Positions 5,866 through 33,909 of a stretch of DNA of 64,000 nt are shown here, piece after piece (the first letter of the stretch is position 1; every line of letters starts with the position of its first letter). A program made the translations under genes and the position numbers. This stretch comes from Modestobacter versicolor (lineage in GTDB: Bacteria; Actinomycetota; Actinomycetes; Mycobacteriales; Geodermatophilaceae), in NCBI RefSeq assembly GCF_014195485.1, contig NZ_JACIBU010000001.1:62001-126000 (forward strand), given 5' to 3'. The notes beneath the pieces were generated by a model. The model was not told where the DNA came from, searched no databases, and saw only the letters and a list, made by a program, of their open reading frames with translations.

Positions 5866-7455
5866 TCAGCCGTTCCCGCGGCCGCCGCCCCCGCCACCAC
5901 CGGGGCCGCGCCAGTCGCCGACGTTCTCCTCGATCCACTCCTCGATCTCCTCGGGGGTGGTCGGGAAGGCCTCCTCACCGCCCCCGTCCTCCTCGGGTGC
6001 CGGCGCGGGGGCCGGCGCGGGTGCAGGGGCGGGAGCAGGGGCGGGAGCGGGCCGCGGGGTGGGGGTCGGGGTGGGCGTCGGCGGCGGCGGAGCGATCGCG
6101 TACGCCACCGTGACGATGGCGCCCGGCGTCAGCTGCCCGACCGGGTTGACCGTGAGCACCGAGTCGGCCGCCACGTCGGCGGTCTCCTGCGGCTGCAGGG
6201 CCACCTGCAGCTGCTTCGCCGTCAGCTCGGCCTGCACCTCGGCGACCGGGCGGCCGACGTAGTCGGCCAGCGCGAGGCCGACCAGCTCGACCGGCGGCGG
6301 GGCCGAGGTGGAGGTGGTCGTGGGTGCCGCGGCCGGCGGGTCCGGGCGGTCGGCGGCCACCGCGAGGAAGCCGGCGGTGCCGCCACCCACGACCAGCACG
6401 GTCAGCAGGGCGCCCACCAGGAACGGCCAGCGCCGGCGGGTGGGTTCGGGCTCCGGCTCGTCCTCGAGGGCGCGGAGCTCGGCCAGGTCGTGCACCTCGC
6501 CGTCCTGGGGGAGGACGAAGGCCCGGGTCGGCGGGAACGGCGGCGGCGGAGTGGGGGTGCGCACCGGCTCCGTCGTCCGGACCGCCGGCATCACCGCGGT
6601 CCGCGGGGCGTCGGCGCCCGCCGGCCGGCCGGCGATGACGTCGTCGATGGCGGCGCGGAAGGCGGCGCCGTCGGGGAAGCGCTGCTGCGGGTCCTTGACG
6701 ATGGCCTGCTCGATCAGCCGGCGCACCGGCTCGGGGACGTGCGCCGGCAGCGGCGGCGGCACCTCGCGGATCTGCCGGAGCGCGATCTGGGTGGGCGTGC
6801 CGCCGTCGAAGCCGCGGTGCCCGGCGAGGCACTCGTAGCCGATCAGCCCCAGCGCGTAGACGTCGCTGGCCGGGCCGGCCCTCATGCCCTGCGCCTGCTC
6901 GGGCGAGAGGTAGTTGGCGGTGCCGATGACCTCGCCGGTCGCGGTGAGCGGGATGCTCGCCGCGGAGACGGCGACGCCGAAGTCGGTGAGCTTGACCGAG
7001 CCGTCGGAGCCGAGCAGCACGTTGCCGGGCTTGACGTCCCGGTGGACGACGCCGGCCGCGTGCGCGGCGCCCAGCCCGGCGGCGCTGTGCCGCAGCACCT
7101 CGAGGGTGCGGTCGACCGTCAGCCGGCGCTCGCGCTCCAGCACGGTCGACAGCGCCTCTCCGCGCACCAGCTCCATCACCAGGTAGGCCTGCTGCTCGCC
7201 GGCCGCGTCGAGCACCTCGCCGTAGTCGAACAGCGTCGCGATGTTCGGGTGCACCAGGCCGGCGGAGTGCTGGGACTCGGCGCGGAACCGGGCCAGGAAC
7301 GTCGGGTCGGCGGTGTAGTCGCTGCGGAGCACCTTGACCGCGACGTCCCGGTTCAGCCGGGTGTCCCGCGCCCGCCACACCTGGCCCATGCCGCCGGTGG
7401 CGATGAGCTCGTCGAGCGCGTAGCGCCCACCGAGGAGCTGGCGGTCCGGGTCCAC
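5866..7455 (-). CDS. Ser/Thr protein kinase with extracellular PASTA-like domain (copy A)
   Basis: A 529-residue Hanks-type kinase. Residues about 10-275 form the kinase domain, with glycine loop GGMGQV at 21-26, lysine K41, HRDVKPGN at 138-145 and DFG at 158-160. A Pro-rich juxtamembrane linker (about 280-340) leads to one transmembrane helix (about 343-367). The extracellular PASTA-like unit (about 389-453, VGRPVAEVQAELTAKQLQV) is followed by an Ala-Pro repeat and a glycine-rich end. GTG 7455 has GGCAGGA upstream. It is divergent from an AAA+ ATPase and close in sequence to the kinase at 10278-11828. PASTA kinases sense cell-wall fragments; substrates here are unknown. Confidence 0.92.
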   Translation of the reverse strand: MDPDRQLLGGRYALDELIATGGMGQVWRARDTRLNRDVAVKVLRSDYTADPTFLARFRAESQHSAGLVHPNIATLFDYGEVLDAAGEQQAYLVMELVRGEALSTVLERERRLTVDRTLEVLRHSAAGLGAAHAAGVVHRDVKPGNVLLGSDGSVKLTDFGVAVSAASIPLTATGEVIGTANYLSPEQAQGMRAGPASDVYALGLIGYECLAGHRGFDGGTPTQIALRQIREVPPPLPAHVPEPVRRLIEQAIVKDPQQRFPDGAAFRAAIDDVIAGRPAGADAPRTAVMPAVRTTEPVRTPTPPPPFPPTRAFVLPQDGEVHDLAELRALEDEPEPEPTRRRWPFLVGALLTVLVVGGGTAGFLAVAADRPDPPAAAPTTTSTSAPPPVELVGLALADYVGRPVAEVQAELTAKQLQVALQPQETADVAADSVLTVNPVGQLTPGAIVTVAYAIAPPPPTPTPTPTPRPAPAPAPAPAPAPAPAPAPEEDGGGEEAFPTTPEEIEEWIEENVGDWRGPGGGGGGGRGNG

Positions 7456-27581: not shown

Positions 27582-28184
27582 GTGGCCCGCACGATCGACC
27601 CGGCCCGGCACGAGGCGCGGCGGATGGTGATCATCGACGCCGCGCTCACCCGGTTCGCCGCCGACGGCTTCGACCGGGCGACGACCGCGGCCATCTGCCG
27701 CACCGCCGGGATCGGCTCGGGGACGTTCTTCCACTACTTCCCGACGAAGCTCGACGTCCTGCTGGCGATCCTCGAGCTGGGCACCGCGGAGACCGCCGCC
27801 TGGTTCGCCGCGCAACAGGGGCGCGCGGACGCCGGCGGGGTGCTCGGCGACTACGTCGTCCACGCCGCGACCGAGTACGCCGACCCCCGGGTGGCCGGGT
27901 TCGTGAAGGCGGTCGGTGCGGTGATGAACGACGAGCGGGTCGCCGCCGCACTCGCCCGCGACGAGGCCGTGGTCGCCGACGGGCTGCTGCCCTGGGTGCG
28001 GGCGGCGCAGGCCGCGGGGGAGGTGCGGTCCGACGTCGAGCCCGCGCGGTTGTGCGCGTGGGTGCTCGTCGTGCTCGACGGCTTCCTCGGCCGGCTCGCC
28101 GGGGAGACGGGCTTCGACGCTGCCGCCGAGCAGGACATGCTGATCGACACCGTGCAGCGGCTGCTGGCGGTCAGGAGCGGATGA
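27582..28184 (+). CDS. TetR-family transcriptional regulator
   Basis: A 200-residue repressor: N-terminal HTH (residues about 10-55, RRMVIIDAALTRFAADGFDRATTAAICRTAGIGSGTFFHYFPTK) and an all-helical ligand-binding domain. GTG start with AGGAAAGGGAG upstream. The 40-bp gap to the divergent membrane-protein gene contains TAGAGCGGTCACTC, a plausible TetR operator. Its 3' end overlaps by 14 bp the convergent gene of the selenoprotein operon. Confidence 0.9.
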   Translation: MARTIDPARHEARRMVIIDAALTRFAADGFDRATTAAICRTAGIGSGTFFHYFPTKLDVLLAILELGTAETAAWFAAQQGRADAGGVLGDYVVHAATEYADPRVAGFVKAVGAVMNDERVAAALARDEAVVADGLLPWVRAAQAAGEVRSDVEPARLCAWVLVVLDGFLGRLAGETGFDAAAEQDMLIDTVQRLLAVRSG

Positions 28185-29259
28185 CCGCGGTGCCGATCGT
28201 CTTGGTCGGGAAGCCGAGCGTCTGCACGACCGTGGAGATCCCGGCGTTGGCCGCGCCGGCCACCACCACGATCACGTCGTCCGGGGTGCGCAGCGACGTC
28301 ACGAGCTCGTCGTCCGGGACCTGACCGATGTCCGAGGCCGCCGCCTCGTCGAAGGCTCCGCCGCCGGGCGCGTTCTGGAAGACCGCCGTCGACTCACCGC
28401 GCCCTGCGGCGCGCAGCTGACCCGCCGTCCGCCCGCTGTGCTCGGCCAGGTACTCGCGGACGTCCTGCTTGGACATGCCGTGCGAGGCCAGCAGCTGGGC
28501 GTGCTCGGGCCCGATGACGACGCCGACCCGGCGGAACCGGCGGGTCATCGACCCGATGCGGCCGCAGGTGTCGGCGAGGTCGTTGAGGATCGACCGCGGG
28601 TCACCGGTGTTGCGGTTGTCGATGTGCTCGGTGCTGCGGGTGTGCAGCGCCGACACGGTGCTCACCCCGGCGTCGTGCCCGAGGGTCACCGACAACGGCT
28701 CCCACGGGCTCAGCTCCTCGTTCTCCGCGATGCACATGGAGAACTTGCCGGGGAACCCCTGGGTGGCCTGGTCGAGCTCGTGCGGGCGGACCCCGTAGGC
28801 GTTCATGATGATCAGCCGCATCGCCCGGCCGACCGTGGCGTTGGCCCGGAAGCCGGGCCCGAACACGTTGCCCGCGGAGTTGAAGCCGAGCGGGCCGCGC
28901 ACCGGGCCGTTGACGATCAGCAGCGGACCGCCGCCGGTGGTGCTCTGCCAGCCGCCGAGGCCCGGCCAGCCCTCGTCGACGGTGGCCTCGAGCGCGGCCA
29001 GCACAACCGGGAAGTGCTCGGGCTTGCAGCCGGCCATCGCGGCGTTGATCGCCGCGGCCTGCACGGTGCAGCCGCGCTTGACCTGCTTCATCGTCCAGAT
29101 GACCTCGGACGGCGAGCGGTCGGTGTGCTCGAGGAAGCGGTCGACCAGGCTCGGGATCGGCGGGACGACGGGCAGCCCGTCGGTCCAGCCGTTCTCGTAG
29201 CACTCCTCGATCGCGGCGATCAGGTCCTCAGGGCGGTACGCGGTCTGCTGCTCGGTCAC
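28171..29259 (-). CDS. Conserved protein paired with UGSC selenoprotein, function unknown
   Basis: A 362-residue soluble protein starting MTEQQTAYRPEDLIAAIEECYENGWTDGLPVVPP. It has several conserved-looking glycine and cysteine positions (KRGCTVQAAAINAAMAGCKPEHFPV, GFNSAGNVFGPGFRANATVGRAMRLI, GKFSMCIAENEELSPW). Its ATG overlaps the stop of the UGSC-family gene by 4 nt, so the pair is translated as a unit; related proteins are known to sit beside or be fused to UGSC proteins. A redox or thiol-linked role is likely by association only. No cofactor motif is recognised. Confidence 0.8.
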   Translation of the reverse strand: MTEQQTAYRPEDLIAAIEECYENGWTDGLPVVPPIPSLVDRFLEHTDRSPSEVIWTMKQVKRGCTVQAAAINAAMAGCKPEHFPVVLAALEATVDEGWPGLGGWQSTTGGGPLLIVNGPVRGPLGFNSAGNVFGPGFRANATVGRAMRLIIMNAYGVRPHELDQATQGFPGKFSMCIAENEELSPWEPLSVTLGHDAGVSTVSALHTRSTEHIDNRNTGDPRSILNDLADTCGRIGSMTRRFRRVGVVIGPEHAQLLASHGMSKQDVREYLAEHSGRTAGQLRAAGRGESTAVFQNAPGGGAFDEAAASDIGQVPDDELVTSLRTPDDVIVVVAGAANAGISTVVQTLGFPTKTIGTAVIRS

Positions 29260-29789
29260 GGGGCCTCTCCACGCAGGATGGCCATCACCTGGGGTGCGGC
29301 GATCTTCGCGACCGCGGCGATGCCCTCGGCGTCCAGGCTGCTCACCGGGTGGGGGACGACGGCGTACCGGTAGTCCGGTGCGCCCTGGATGACCGCCATG
29401 GCGTCGGCGCTCATCTTCAGTGCGTCGGTGCAGATCGCTGCCGACGGGACTCCGCGCTTCTCCATCAGGATGACGTCGGCCACACTGGCCGCGCTGCAGC
29501 TGCCCTAATCACCGACCGCTTCGAGGACGAGGTCGCACTCCTTCGCGATGGCGTCGAGCACCGCGTCGTCGGCGGGCCAGGTGGCGGGGACCGTCTTCCA
29601 GGTCACCGAGGACGGCGCCAGTTCAGGCTCGACGATCGCGAAGACCGCCTCGAGCAGCTCGCGGGCGTTGTGCTTGCCGTTGTCCATCAGCACGATCCGC
29701 TTGCCGCGCAGGTCGGCCGGCCGCTCGGCGAGCAGCACCGCCGCACCCTCGGCCTGCACGGTGGGGTCCAGCATCTCGAAGACGGGCAT
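29256..29789 (-). CDS. UGSC-family selenoprotein with selenocysteine encoded by TAG
   Basis: Reading from ATG 29789 (AGGGAG upstream), the frame runs 94 codons to VLEAVGD, meets TAG at 29507-29505, and continues in the same frame as GSCSAASVADVILMEKRG to TGA at 29256. The stop falls exactly on the U of the U-G-S-C motif that names this (seleno)protein family, so codon 95 is read as selenocysteine; total 177 residues. A SECIS-like hairpin follows 13 nt later. UAG-directed selenocysteine has been shown in Geodermatophilus and Blastococcus (Mukai and colleagues, 2016). The U-x-x-C pair suggests a thiol/selenol redox role; the reaction is unknown. The downstream gene overlaps by 4 nt. Confidence 0.9.
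29477..29491 (-). promoter_or_regulatory. Bacterial SECIS-like hairpin downstream of the TAG codon
   Basis: In the mRNA, CGGCC-AGUGU-GGCCG forms a perfect 5-bp stem with a 5-nt loop, occupying nt 14-28 after the UAG. The loop GU falls at +20/+21, the same distance as the SelB-contacting GU of the E. coli fdhF SECIS. A lower stem (G13-C30, C12-G31) is possible with a bulged A. Confidence 0.75.
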
Positions 29790-31841: not shown

Positions 31842-33586
31842 TCAAGCAGTGAGATCTCTAATTACGGATTTCCCTGTGACCTTTTCGATCACGGCCACCA
31901 GCGCCCGGGTGCGCGCAGCGATGAACGCGTCATAGTCGTCTGCCAACATCGCATCTCGCGACTTGTTATCGATAACGTGTGTCTTGAGCAAACGGTCCCG
32001 GTTAGGTCCGATCGACCCCGTTCTCATGTCTTGGAGATAGCTGCTCGGTGCGTTGTCGCTTATCACGCGGTTTGTTTCGGCGTCAATCAGTGTGCGATTA
32101 AGAATCAGTTCGCCGCTCAGGTCGCCGGAATACTCACGCTTCAGCCAAGCTTGAGGAAAGATGTGGTGAGCGTCGATCTCCTGTGCCTGCATTTGGCTCG
32201 CCGTGATCCGCTGACGCGTGTGAAAGTCGAGAGCCCCATTCTGCATCACCAGAACCATCGTCCCGCGATAGAGCGCACGGCGGTTCGTGCGGGCGTTCGC
32301 GATCTGACTTTCGTTGAATGCAAAGTTGGCGACAGCCTCTGGGGCAGTGTCACTCTCGCCGGCCAGCCATGCTCGCAACAACAAGTAGTCTGCCTGTGCC
32401 TGACTGTTTCCGCCTTGATCGAAGTTGGCGGTGAATACGGTGCACCAAAATACTGCTTCATTCGCTCCAGGGCGACGCCCCGCTTCTTGCTGGGCGCGTC
32501 GCGGATAACGTCCCACGCTGCCGCCATGGGGACTAGAATCATACCGTAGGGCAGCCACTTCTCGGTTTGAACCCAGCATTGATCTCTAACGAATTCGAGC
32601 GCGTCAGCGTATCCCTCAATCACGGTATTCCAATGCGCTTGAATGTTCTCTGCCCGCAAATCGAGCACCTTCGCTCGTTGAGCGGACCCTGTCGAACGAA
32701 GAGTCACCGCCTGCAAGACATTATACGGGTCCACGTTGTAGTCGACCAACACTTGGTGCTGCTGCCTTGCTGACGCCCACAAATCCCTTAGATTCTGGCC
32801 ATATGCCCAAACTCGCGCCGTAATCAACTCAAAGACGCTAAGTTTTACGCCCCGCAAATTGAGCGTCTCGAAGATCTTGCATACAGCAATCATGGTCGTC
32901 TGTTCATCCAGCTCAACGACCGGAAAGTTATATGATCCCAATGGTGTGAGCAAAGCTCTTCGAACGGACGACAGGCGCAGGCGACGACTAAGTTGAGTGT
33001 CTGAATCTCCGCCATGATGGGCCACTGCTTGTTCCACCCAAGCATCGAAACCGGCGTCGGCCTGTAGGTACTGATGTACGGGGAAGACCCAGTTGTCCTT
33101 CTGCCAATCAGCGTTATCTGATTGGATGGGGCGGCCAGCCTTAACGGTCTCAAATGTGACCAACGCATCGAAGTCAACGGCCTCCACATCCAGCGGACTG
33201 GCCGAATCAACGAGCGACGCCAAGTTAACCAGATATCGCGCATCACCGACGCCCCGGTGGGCCTGATAAAGGGACGTGAGTCGCTGCTGGCCGTCAAGAA
33301 CGAGCATTGGGGGCGTGGCGTTGACGCTCAGGTCCGGAGCGCCGGCGAAAGCCCTAGGGGCGAAGGCGTGGATACCGGTAGAAGGCTGCCGCAGCATCAA
33401 CAGCGAGCCCGAAGGAAATTTGCTCATGATGGATACCAGTAGATCGCGCGTGGCCGCCGGGTCCCAGACAAAGTCCCGCTGAAAGTCGGGCAAGGCGAGT
33501 CGCTTTGCTTCGATCTCTTGAAGCATCCAGGAGATCGGTCGGGGTTGGGTGTCGAAGATGGGGTCGCCGCCGCCGAAGACAGTCAC
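31842..33586 (-). pseudogene. GmrSD-like type IV restriction enzyme (DUF262 + DUF1524), frameshifted
   Basis: The N-terminal half (from GTG 33586) is a DUF262 domain: ALPDFQRDFVWDPAATRDLLVSI and the nucleotide-binding LVLDGQQRLTSLYQA. The C-terminal half, in another frame, is a DUF1524 HNH-type nuclease: EIDAHHIFPQAWLK ... LNRTLIDAETNR. The frame is lost at an AAAA run at 32447-32450: one extra base gives ALERMKQYF joined to WCTVFTANFDQGG, a 581-residue protein. GmrSD enzymes cleave glucosylated hydroxymethylcytosine phage DNA. The gene may be a recent pseudogene, a homopolymer sequencing error, or switchable. The GTG has TAGGCT 6 nt upstream, so the mRNA is probably leaderless. Confidence 0.8.
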
Positions 33587-33598: not shown

Positions 33599-33770
33599 GG
33601 CAGTCAACGGGGGCCGGCGCGGGACGAGCGTCGACAACATCACCTCCGTCGGCGTTGGTGGCCCGAGGGCAGGGAGAGGGCGCGTGGCGGCAGCGCCTTC
33701 AAGGCCGCTTGAGCTCCGACCCCGCCAGCACGTCGAGGGACCGTTCGGTAGATAGCCGGTTTCACTGATG

Positions 33771-33909
33771 CCGTGCCGTGCCGTGCCGTGCCGTGCCGTG
33801 CCGTGCCGTGCCGTGCCGTGCCGTGCCGTGCCGTGCCGTGCCGTGCCGTGCCGTGCCGTGCCGTGCCGTGCCGTGCCGTGCCGTGCCGTGCCGTGCCGTG
33901 CCGTGCCGT
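33771..33909. repeat. 27-copy CCGTG pentanucleotide tandem repeat
   Basis: Twenty-seven uninterrupted perfect copies of CCGTG (33771-33905) plus a partial unit. The tract immediately follows the ATG at 33768 and leads toward the Eco29kI-like endonuclease gene. As 5 is not a multiple of 3, each copy gained or lost shifts the frame. With 27 copies the ATG frame ends at 34067 and is out of frame with the endonuclease; 25 or 28 copies would join them. Confidence 0.95.

Follow-up and report, generated by a model that had tools for sequence, protein, structure and literature searches.

A predicted UAG-encoded selenoprotein of the UGSC family in Modestobacter versicolor and the distribution of selenocysteine anticodons in Geodermatophilaceae

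Analysis of a 64,000-nucleotide stretch of the Modestobacter versicolor genome (the window; C1:62001-126000 of a 4.59-Mb genome) revealed a UGSC-family gene on the minus strand (29256..29789) that is predicted to encode a selenoprotein. The frame of 534 nt runs from the ATG at 29789 to a TGA and contains a single in-frame stop, a TAG at positions 29505..29507 (-) in the context VGD-*-GSC. This TAG is codon 95 of 177 and the proposed selenocysteine (Sec) codon; the UxxC motif of the UGSC family is present, and by sequence reading its first position is the TAG. The second Cys of the motif (Cys98) is encoded by TGC at 29496..29498 (-). GC3 was 0.936 upstream and 0.902 downstream of the TAG, and 0.727 and 0.466 in the shifted frames. 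The apparent intactness of the frame across the TAG is far beyond what chance would produce. A first-pass annotation of this DNA had described one frame with one stop lying exactly at the U of U-G-S-C, normal codon bias on either side, and a 4-nt overlap with the downstream gene. Each of these statements agrees with the present reading; the overlap arises from a GTG start at 29259.

The read-through product was compared with protein family profiles. It matched Pfam UGSC (PF24696) with 178.4 bits (cut-off, 25) over profile positions 1-171 of 172, and NCBIfam NF041046 with 133.3 bits (cut-off, 125), the separate halves scoring 36 and 76. Earlier members of the UGSC family encode Sec by UGA, unlike the present gene with its TAG. 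Protein searches revealed close relatives in 'Geodermatophilaceae bacterium URHA0031' and 'Geodermatophilus sp. TF02-6', and these two genes (L082 and L083) carry TAG at the matching site. The names of both fit the affinity to Geodermatophilus and Blastococcus that the first-pass annotation had suggested. Substitution rates (dN/dS) were 0.041/0.227 before and 0.016/0.091 after the TAG in the comparison with L082, 0.202/0.585 and 0.152/0.399 with L083 (L224 is the same gene and gave identical figures), 0.046/0.235 and 0.036/0.091 with L228, and 0.250/0.453 and 0.188/0.321 with L225. The comparison with L226 gave 0.094/0.210 before the TAG and nearly neutral values (0.105/0.113) after it. Two distant copies, L008 and L220, showed dN above dS before the TAG (1.268/0.621 and 1.169/0.610) and values of 0.468/0.757 and 0.434/0.700 after it; the upstream excess is attributed to the ungapped alignment that was used.

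A SECIS-like hairpin follows the TAG at 29473..29494 (-), with a core stem formed by 29491-29486 and 29482-29477, a loop at 29485-29483, and AGU at 29486-29484. With offsets counted from the stop's first base, 16-21 are paired with 30-25 and the AGU is apical. Each of the 33 unique TAG sequences, and likewise the single TGA sequence, forms the complete set of six core pairs and has the AGU. Among 39 unique Cys sequences, six pairs were formed in 3, five in 7, four in 20, and fewer in 9. Synonymous reshuffling produced six pairs in 5.5-8.0% of draws (7.2% for the TAG sequences). The stem sequences vary among subgroups while the pairing is kept. The 33 hairpin sequences are related and do not represent 33 independent events, and for this reason no p-value is given. 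At the level of sequence and pairing, a putative SECIS hairpin is present after the UGSC TAG codon.

The gene that overlaps the selenoprotein stop (28171..29259, -) encodes a partner protein of 362 aa, for which no Pfam or NCBIfam family was matched. Of the 61 UGSC loci that comprise over 2.8 kb of DNA (the one in the window counted), 58 also contain a homologue of the partner; the three exceptions are L008, L187, and L191. Fold prediction for the partner was discarded as unusable (pLDDT, 39.2), and a PDB profile search with it returned nothing convincing. In a 16-sequence UGSC alignment, C95, C98, and G113 are invariant; at position 62 of the aligned fragment, the member from the window has Val in place of an otherwise conserved Lys. 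The UGSC model with the highest confidence (pLDDT, 69.8; best of five, ranging from 45.6 up and built with three aligned sequences) has a moderately confident fold with alternating strands and helices and the UxxC motif before a helix. Of 1562 PDB matches to this moderate model, the 50 listed included neither a specific structural relative nor a thioredoxin, and a PDB sequence search with the 16-row profile gave a best E of 0.074 and nothing convincing. The gene resembles the UGSC-containing selenoprotein family (PF24696, NF041046) described in PMC2398784 in its UxxC motif, its Sec and Cys forms, and its full-length match. A Trx-like fold is considered likely for the family there, whereas the present model, at moderate confidence, shows a Rossmann-like succession of strands and helices. 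Sec within UxxC is likewise shared with the proline/glycine reductases PrdB/GrdB (PF07355; PMC2398784). A link between UGSC and the PF07355 reductases was tried and rejected, with an hhalign probability of 0.2 against nine actinobacterial PF07355 proteins. With less confidence than for the coding assignment, the model suggests a Rossmann-like alpha/beta redox protein that may form a Sec95/Cys98 selenenylsulfide and work with the adjacent partner; we infer that the two proteins may form one redox enzyme. The gene in the window has ABC transporter and deaminase genes as neighbours and its UGSC paralogue has dehydratase and IclR genes, from which a role in small-molecule catabolism might be guessed.

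The first-pass annotation had named a CUA tRNA-Sec together with selA, selB, and selD as a check of its proposal, and all four were found in the genome. The tRNA-Sec with anticodon CUA is located at C1:1687097-1687188 (-); it matches the Rfam tRNA-Sec model end to end (RF01852; 64.3 bits; gathering score, 47), and no other Rfam model matched at the locus. A second RF01852 match above the Rfam cut-off (48.1 bits) is a tRNA-Ser. ARAGORN calls the CUA tRNA-Sec (L001:1497-1592) 'tRNA-Pyl'. The products of selA (313 bits), selB (271 bits; cut-off, 242), and selD (390 bits) all scored above their cut-offs. The tRNA-Sec gene adjoins selA, followed by selB, and selD lies about 8.5 kb off. The SelB family match spans only profile positions 2-339 of 581; the frame also contains a C-terminal winged-helix domain (PF09107; 49.9 bits). 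Four UGSC copies are present in the genome, two with TGC (L006 and L007) and two with TAG, namely the gene in the window and a paralogue at C1:800585-801091 (L008). A formate dehydrogenase (FDH) gene (TIGR01553; C1:2816748-2817674) also has TAG at its Sec site in the context QARI-*-HSSTVPGL, followed by a hairpin whose loop contains GU. A second FDH-like gene (TIGR01591, under the family cut-off) has no stop.

The survey was extended to 112 genomes of Geodermatophilaceae, 54 of which contained UGSC genes (95 matches). One in-frame stop each was present in 72 matches and none in the other 23; the stop was TAG in all 72 and always lay at the U of UGSC. The 72 matches belong to 48 genomes, and 48/48 have a CUA tRNA-Sec. 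Codons at the motif were read at 123 UGSC loci, where two of the 95 matches (G061:C18 and G067:C15:11146) had no locus of their own. These comprised 75 TAG (including 3 duplicates), 1 TGA, 39 Cys codons, and 8 loci lacking the xGSC motif, which were excluded from the Cys count. The motif position was thus Cys or stop in 115/115 xGSC-bearing loci, and the comparison with UGSC relatives that the first-pass annotation had proposed yielded TAG, TGA, or Cys at the matching site. A tRNA-Sec was detected in 108/112 genomes; all 110 matches were read, giving 102 CUA (101 genomes) and 8 UCA. The UCA anticodon occurred in the genera g6, g7, and g8 (seven genomes; L053-L058 and L061) and in G059, where it stands beside CUA. 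The seven UCA-only genomes each consist of at least 190 contigs and are perhaps derived from metagenomes. A search of 20 chosen genomes for the TIGR01553 FDH gave matches in 13, all with CUA, and their 16 stops were all TAG; no TIGR01553 match was found in the seven UCA-only genomes. An FDH-like gene with TGA in the context NRT-*-HAPSVVGL was present in all three g8 genomes searched (the fourth, G072, was left out).

A class sample of 394 genomes, including 2 from the family, was analyzed with up to 8 candidates scored per genome. UGSC genes were found in 23 of these genomes. The sole stop-bearing copy outside the family (G197) has TGA, in a genome whose tRNA-Sec is UCA, and its residue context, VVIEALAD*GSCTSCSVH, recurs in many TAG members. 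The sample yielded 109 tRNA-Sec matches, 2 in the family (CUA) and 107 outside. Seventy of these 107 were read as 62 UCA, 7 probable tRNA-Ser, and 1 ACA, with no CUA among them. The seven probable tRNA-Ser (L334-L340; 52.7-55.2 bits) were dropped as tRNA-Sec candidates, their anticodon UGA fitting tRNA-Ser. The ACA match (L341; G386:C1:117033-117124; 66.8 bits), a second tRNA-Sec predicted to read UGU, comes from an 8.3-Mb genome belonging to a different family of the class.

The full-profile match, the in-frame TAG at the putative redox position, the CUA tRNA-Sec, the sel genes, and the conserved hairpin support the proposal that the gene encodes a UGSC-family selenoprotein in a bacterium using UAG as a Sec codon, and we consider this reading very probably correct. 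According to the established bacterial pathway, SerRS would charge tRNA-Sec, SelD would supply the selenophosphate with which SelA converts Ser into Sec, and SelB, guided by the hairpin, would deliver Sec-tRNA(CUA) to a ribosome that has paused at UAG. Release factor 1 would compete with this insertion. Other genes probably still end at UAG; in a rough count, which may include false frames, TAG closes 6/30 long frames with high GC3 in the window.

An in-frame stop is the usual sign of decay, and the organism's own paralogues L006 and L007 have TGC at the site, so the possibility that a Cys codon was lost through a nonsense mutation or misread in sequencing was weighed. A pseudogene or sequencing error of this kind has a negligible probability: the TAG recurs in 72/95 family matches from 48 genomes, the Sec site of the FDH gene is likewise TAG, dN is below dS on either side of the TAG against most near relatives, and TGC to TAG requires two base changes. 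UAG might instead mainly terminate, with the downstream half produced only by near-cognate read-through or re-initiation. This account gains from the UAG termination of other genes suggested by the window count and from the fact that Sec insertion is commonly incomplete. It appears very unlikely: the genome has the sel genes, the hairpin, and a tRNA-Sec whose anticodon matches UAG, and the motif position is never anything other than Cys or stop among the xGSC-bearing loci. Pyrrolysine at UAG would agree with the ARAGORN label of the CUA tRNA and with a table entry for Geodermatophilus obscurus in PMC3639795, a paper concerned with pyrrolysine genes. That tRNA, however, corresponds to the Rfam tRNA-Sec model over its whole length above the gathering score and adjoins selA and selB, and relatives carry Cys or TGA at the site, which leaves pyrrolysine with almost no probability. 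It is possible that the ARAGORN label is a source of false pyrrolysine leads, for example the Geodermatophilus obscurus row in that table. UAG-encoded Sec remains the preferred reading, and standard-code annotation would miss such a gene, which would represent a working change of stop-codon meaning.

Such genes were reported earlier, presumably by Mukai et al. 2016, which we take to be reference 56 of PMC5330540. In a passage of PMC5330540 (2017), FDHs and UGSC-motif selenoproteins with a CUA-matching codon in Geodermatophilaceae are credited to that reference, and a TAG AhpC of Blastococcus saxobsidens is added. UAG-encoded Sec in UGSC proteins of this family is therefore not new, as that passage already has it in print, in line with the claim of the first-pass annotation that it is established for Geodermatophilus and Blastococcus. 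The present case resembles those selenoproteins in the family concerned, the CUA tRNA-Sec, and the TAG UGSC and FDH genes. It differs in scope: that passage of PMC5330540 deals with three such genomes, and the present survey covers 112 family genomes with three UCA genera and one two-anticodon genome. This extends a report on few genomes to a family-wide pattern in which every genome with a TAG UGSC gene has the matching anticodon. The same passage counts eight bacterial genomes that carry a pair of tRNA-Sec genes and is silent on differing anticodons. The literature searched, which included few subscription journals and in part only portions of papers, contained no report of UCA genera in Geodermatophilaceae or of a genome with two Sec codons.

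The two-anticodon genome, G059 (genus g4, Geodermatophilus-type), has a CUA tRNA-Sec, a TAG UGSC gene, and a TAG FDH gene. Its second tRNA-Sec, with UCA, is located at C17:1173-1263 (-) and scored 81.8 bits. An AhpD-like (CFYU) ORF (C17, 1579-2154, +) lies 0.3 kb from this tRNA; read through a TGA at 1870-1872, it matched TIGR01926 with 112.6 bits (cut-off, 81.8; halves, 23.6 and 68.9), and downstream of the TGA lies a hairpin with AGU at its apex. The segment C17 1001-6000 has a GC content of 0.59-0.65, compared with 0.743 for the whole contig, and its tetranucleotide correlation with another contig of the genome is 0.807, compared with at least 0.960 for the 5-kb steps beyond 5 kb. An IS110 transposase is encoded at 6089-6862. 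It is possible that this contig end is misjoined or foreign. No relative of the cassette was found in viral contigs, and the AhpD-like protein had only matches below 60% identity on plasmids (333 records). The cassette DNA matched 30 plasmid records, and the 10 of these that were listed shared with it only the tRNA-Sec stretch or a segment at its right end, the latter being called an IS256 transposase in several records. The tRNA-Sec alone had similar sequences in 7 plasmid records and no phage match. One of the similar tRNA-Sec genes (80% identity) lies between selA and selD on a conjugative Arthrobacter plasmid (L382; NZ_CP110115.1:27700-37814), which also carries selB and a formate dehydrogenase gene nearby, the set adjoining a Tn3 transposase; such Sec gene sets can therefore sit on mobile DNA.

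We slightly favor the view that the UAG Sec code arose inside Geodermatophilaceae and is invadable, G059 having acquired a UCA tRNA-Sec that lies near a TGA AhpD-like gene. The UCA tRNA-Sec of g6, g7, and g8, with the TGA FDH-like gene of g8, perhaps represents the state before the UAG switch. If this holds, one G059 cell would read two stop codons as Sec, and one SelA/SelB set might serve both. Through the UCA genera and the two-anticodon genome it becomes possible to test when the switch took place, whether the change in the tRNA preceded or followed that in the genes, and whether a cell can sustain two Sec codons.

Elsewhere in the window, 28 perfect copies of TGCCG were observed at 33769-33909, just upstream of two overlapping minus-strand frames. 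These frames, 32246-33586 and 31842-32579 (-), look by eye like one frameshifted gene.
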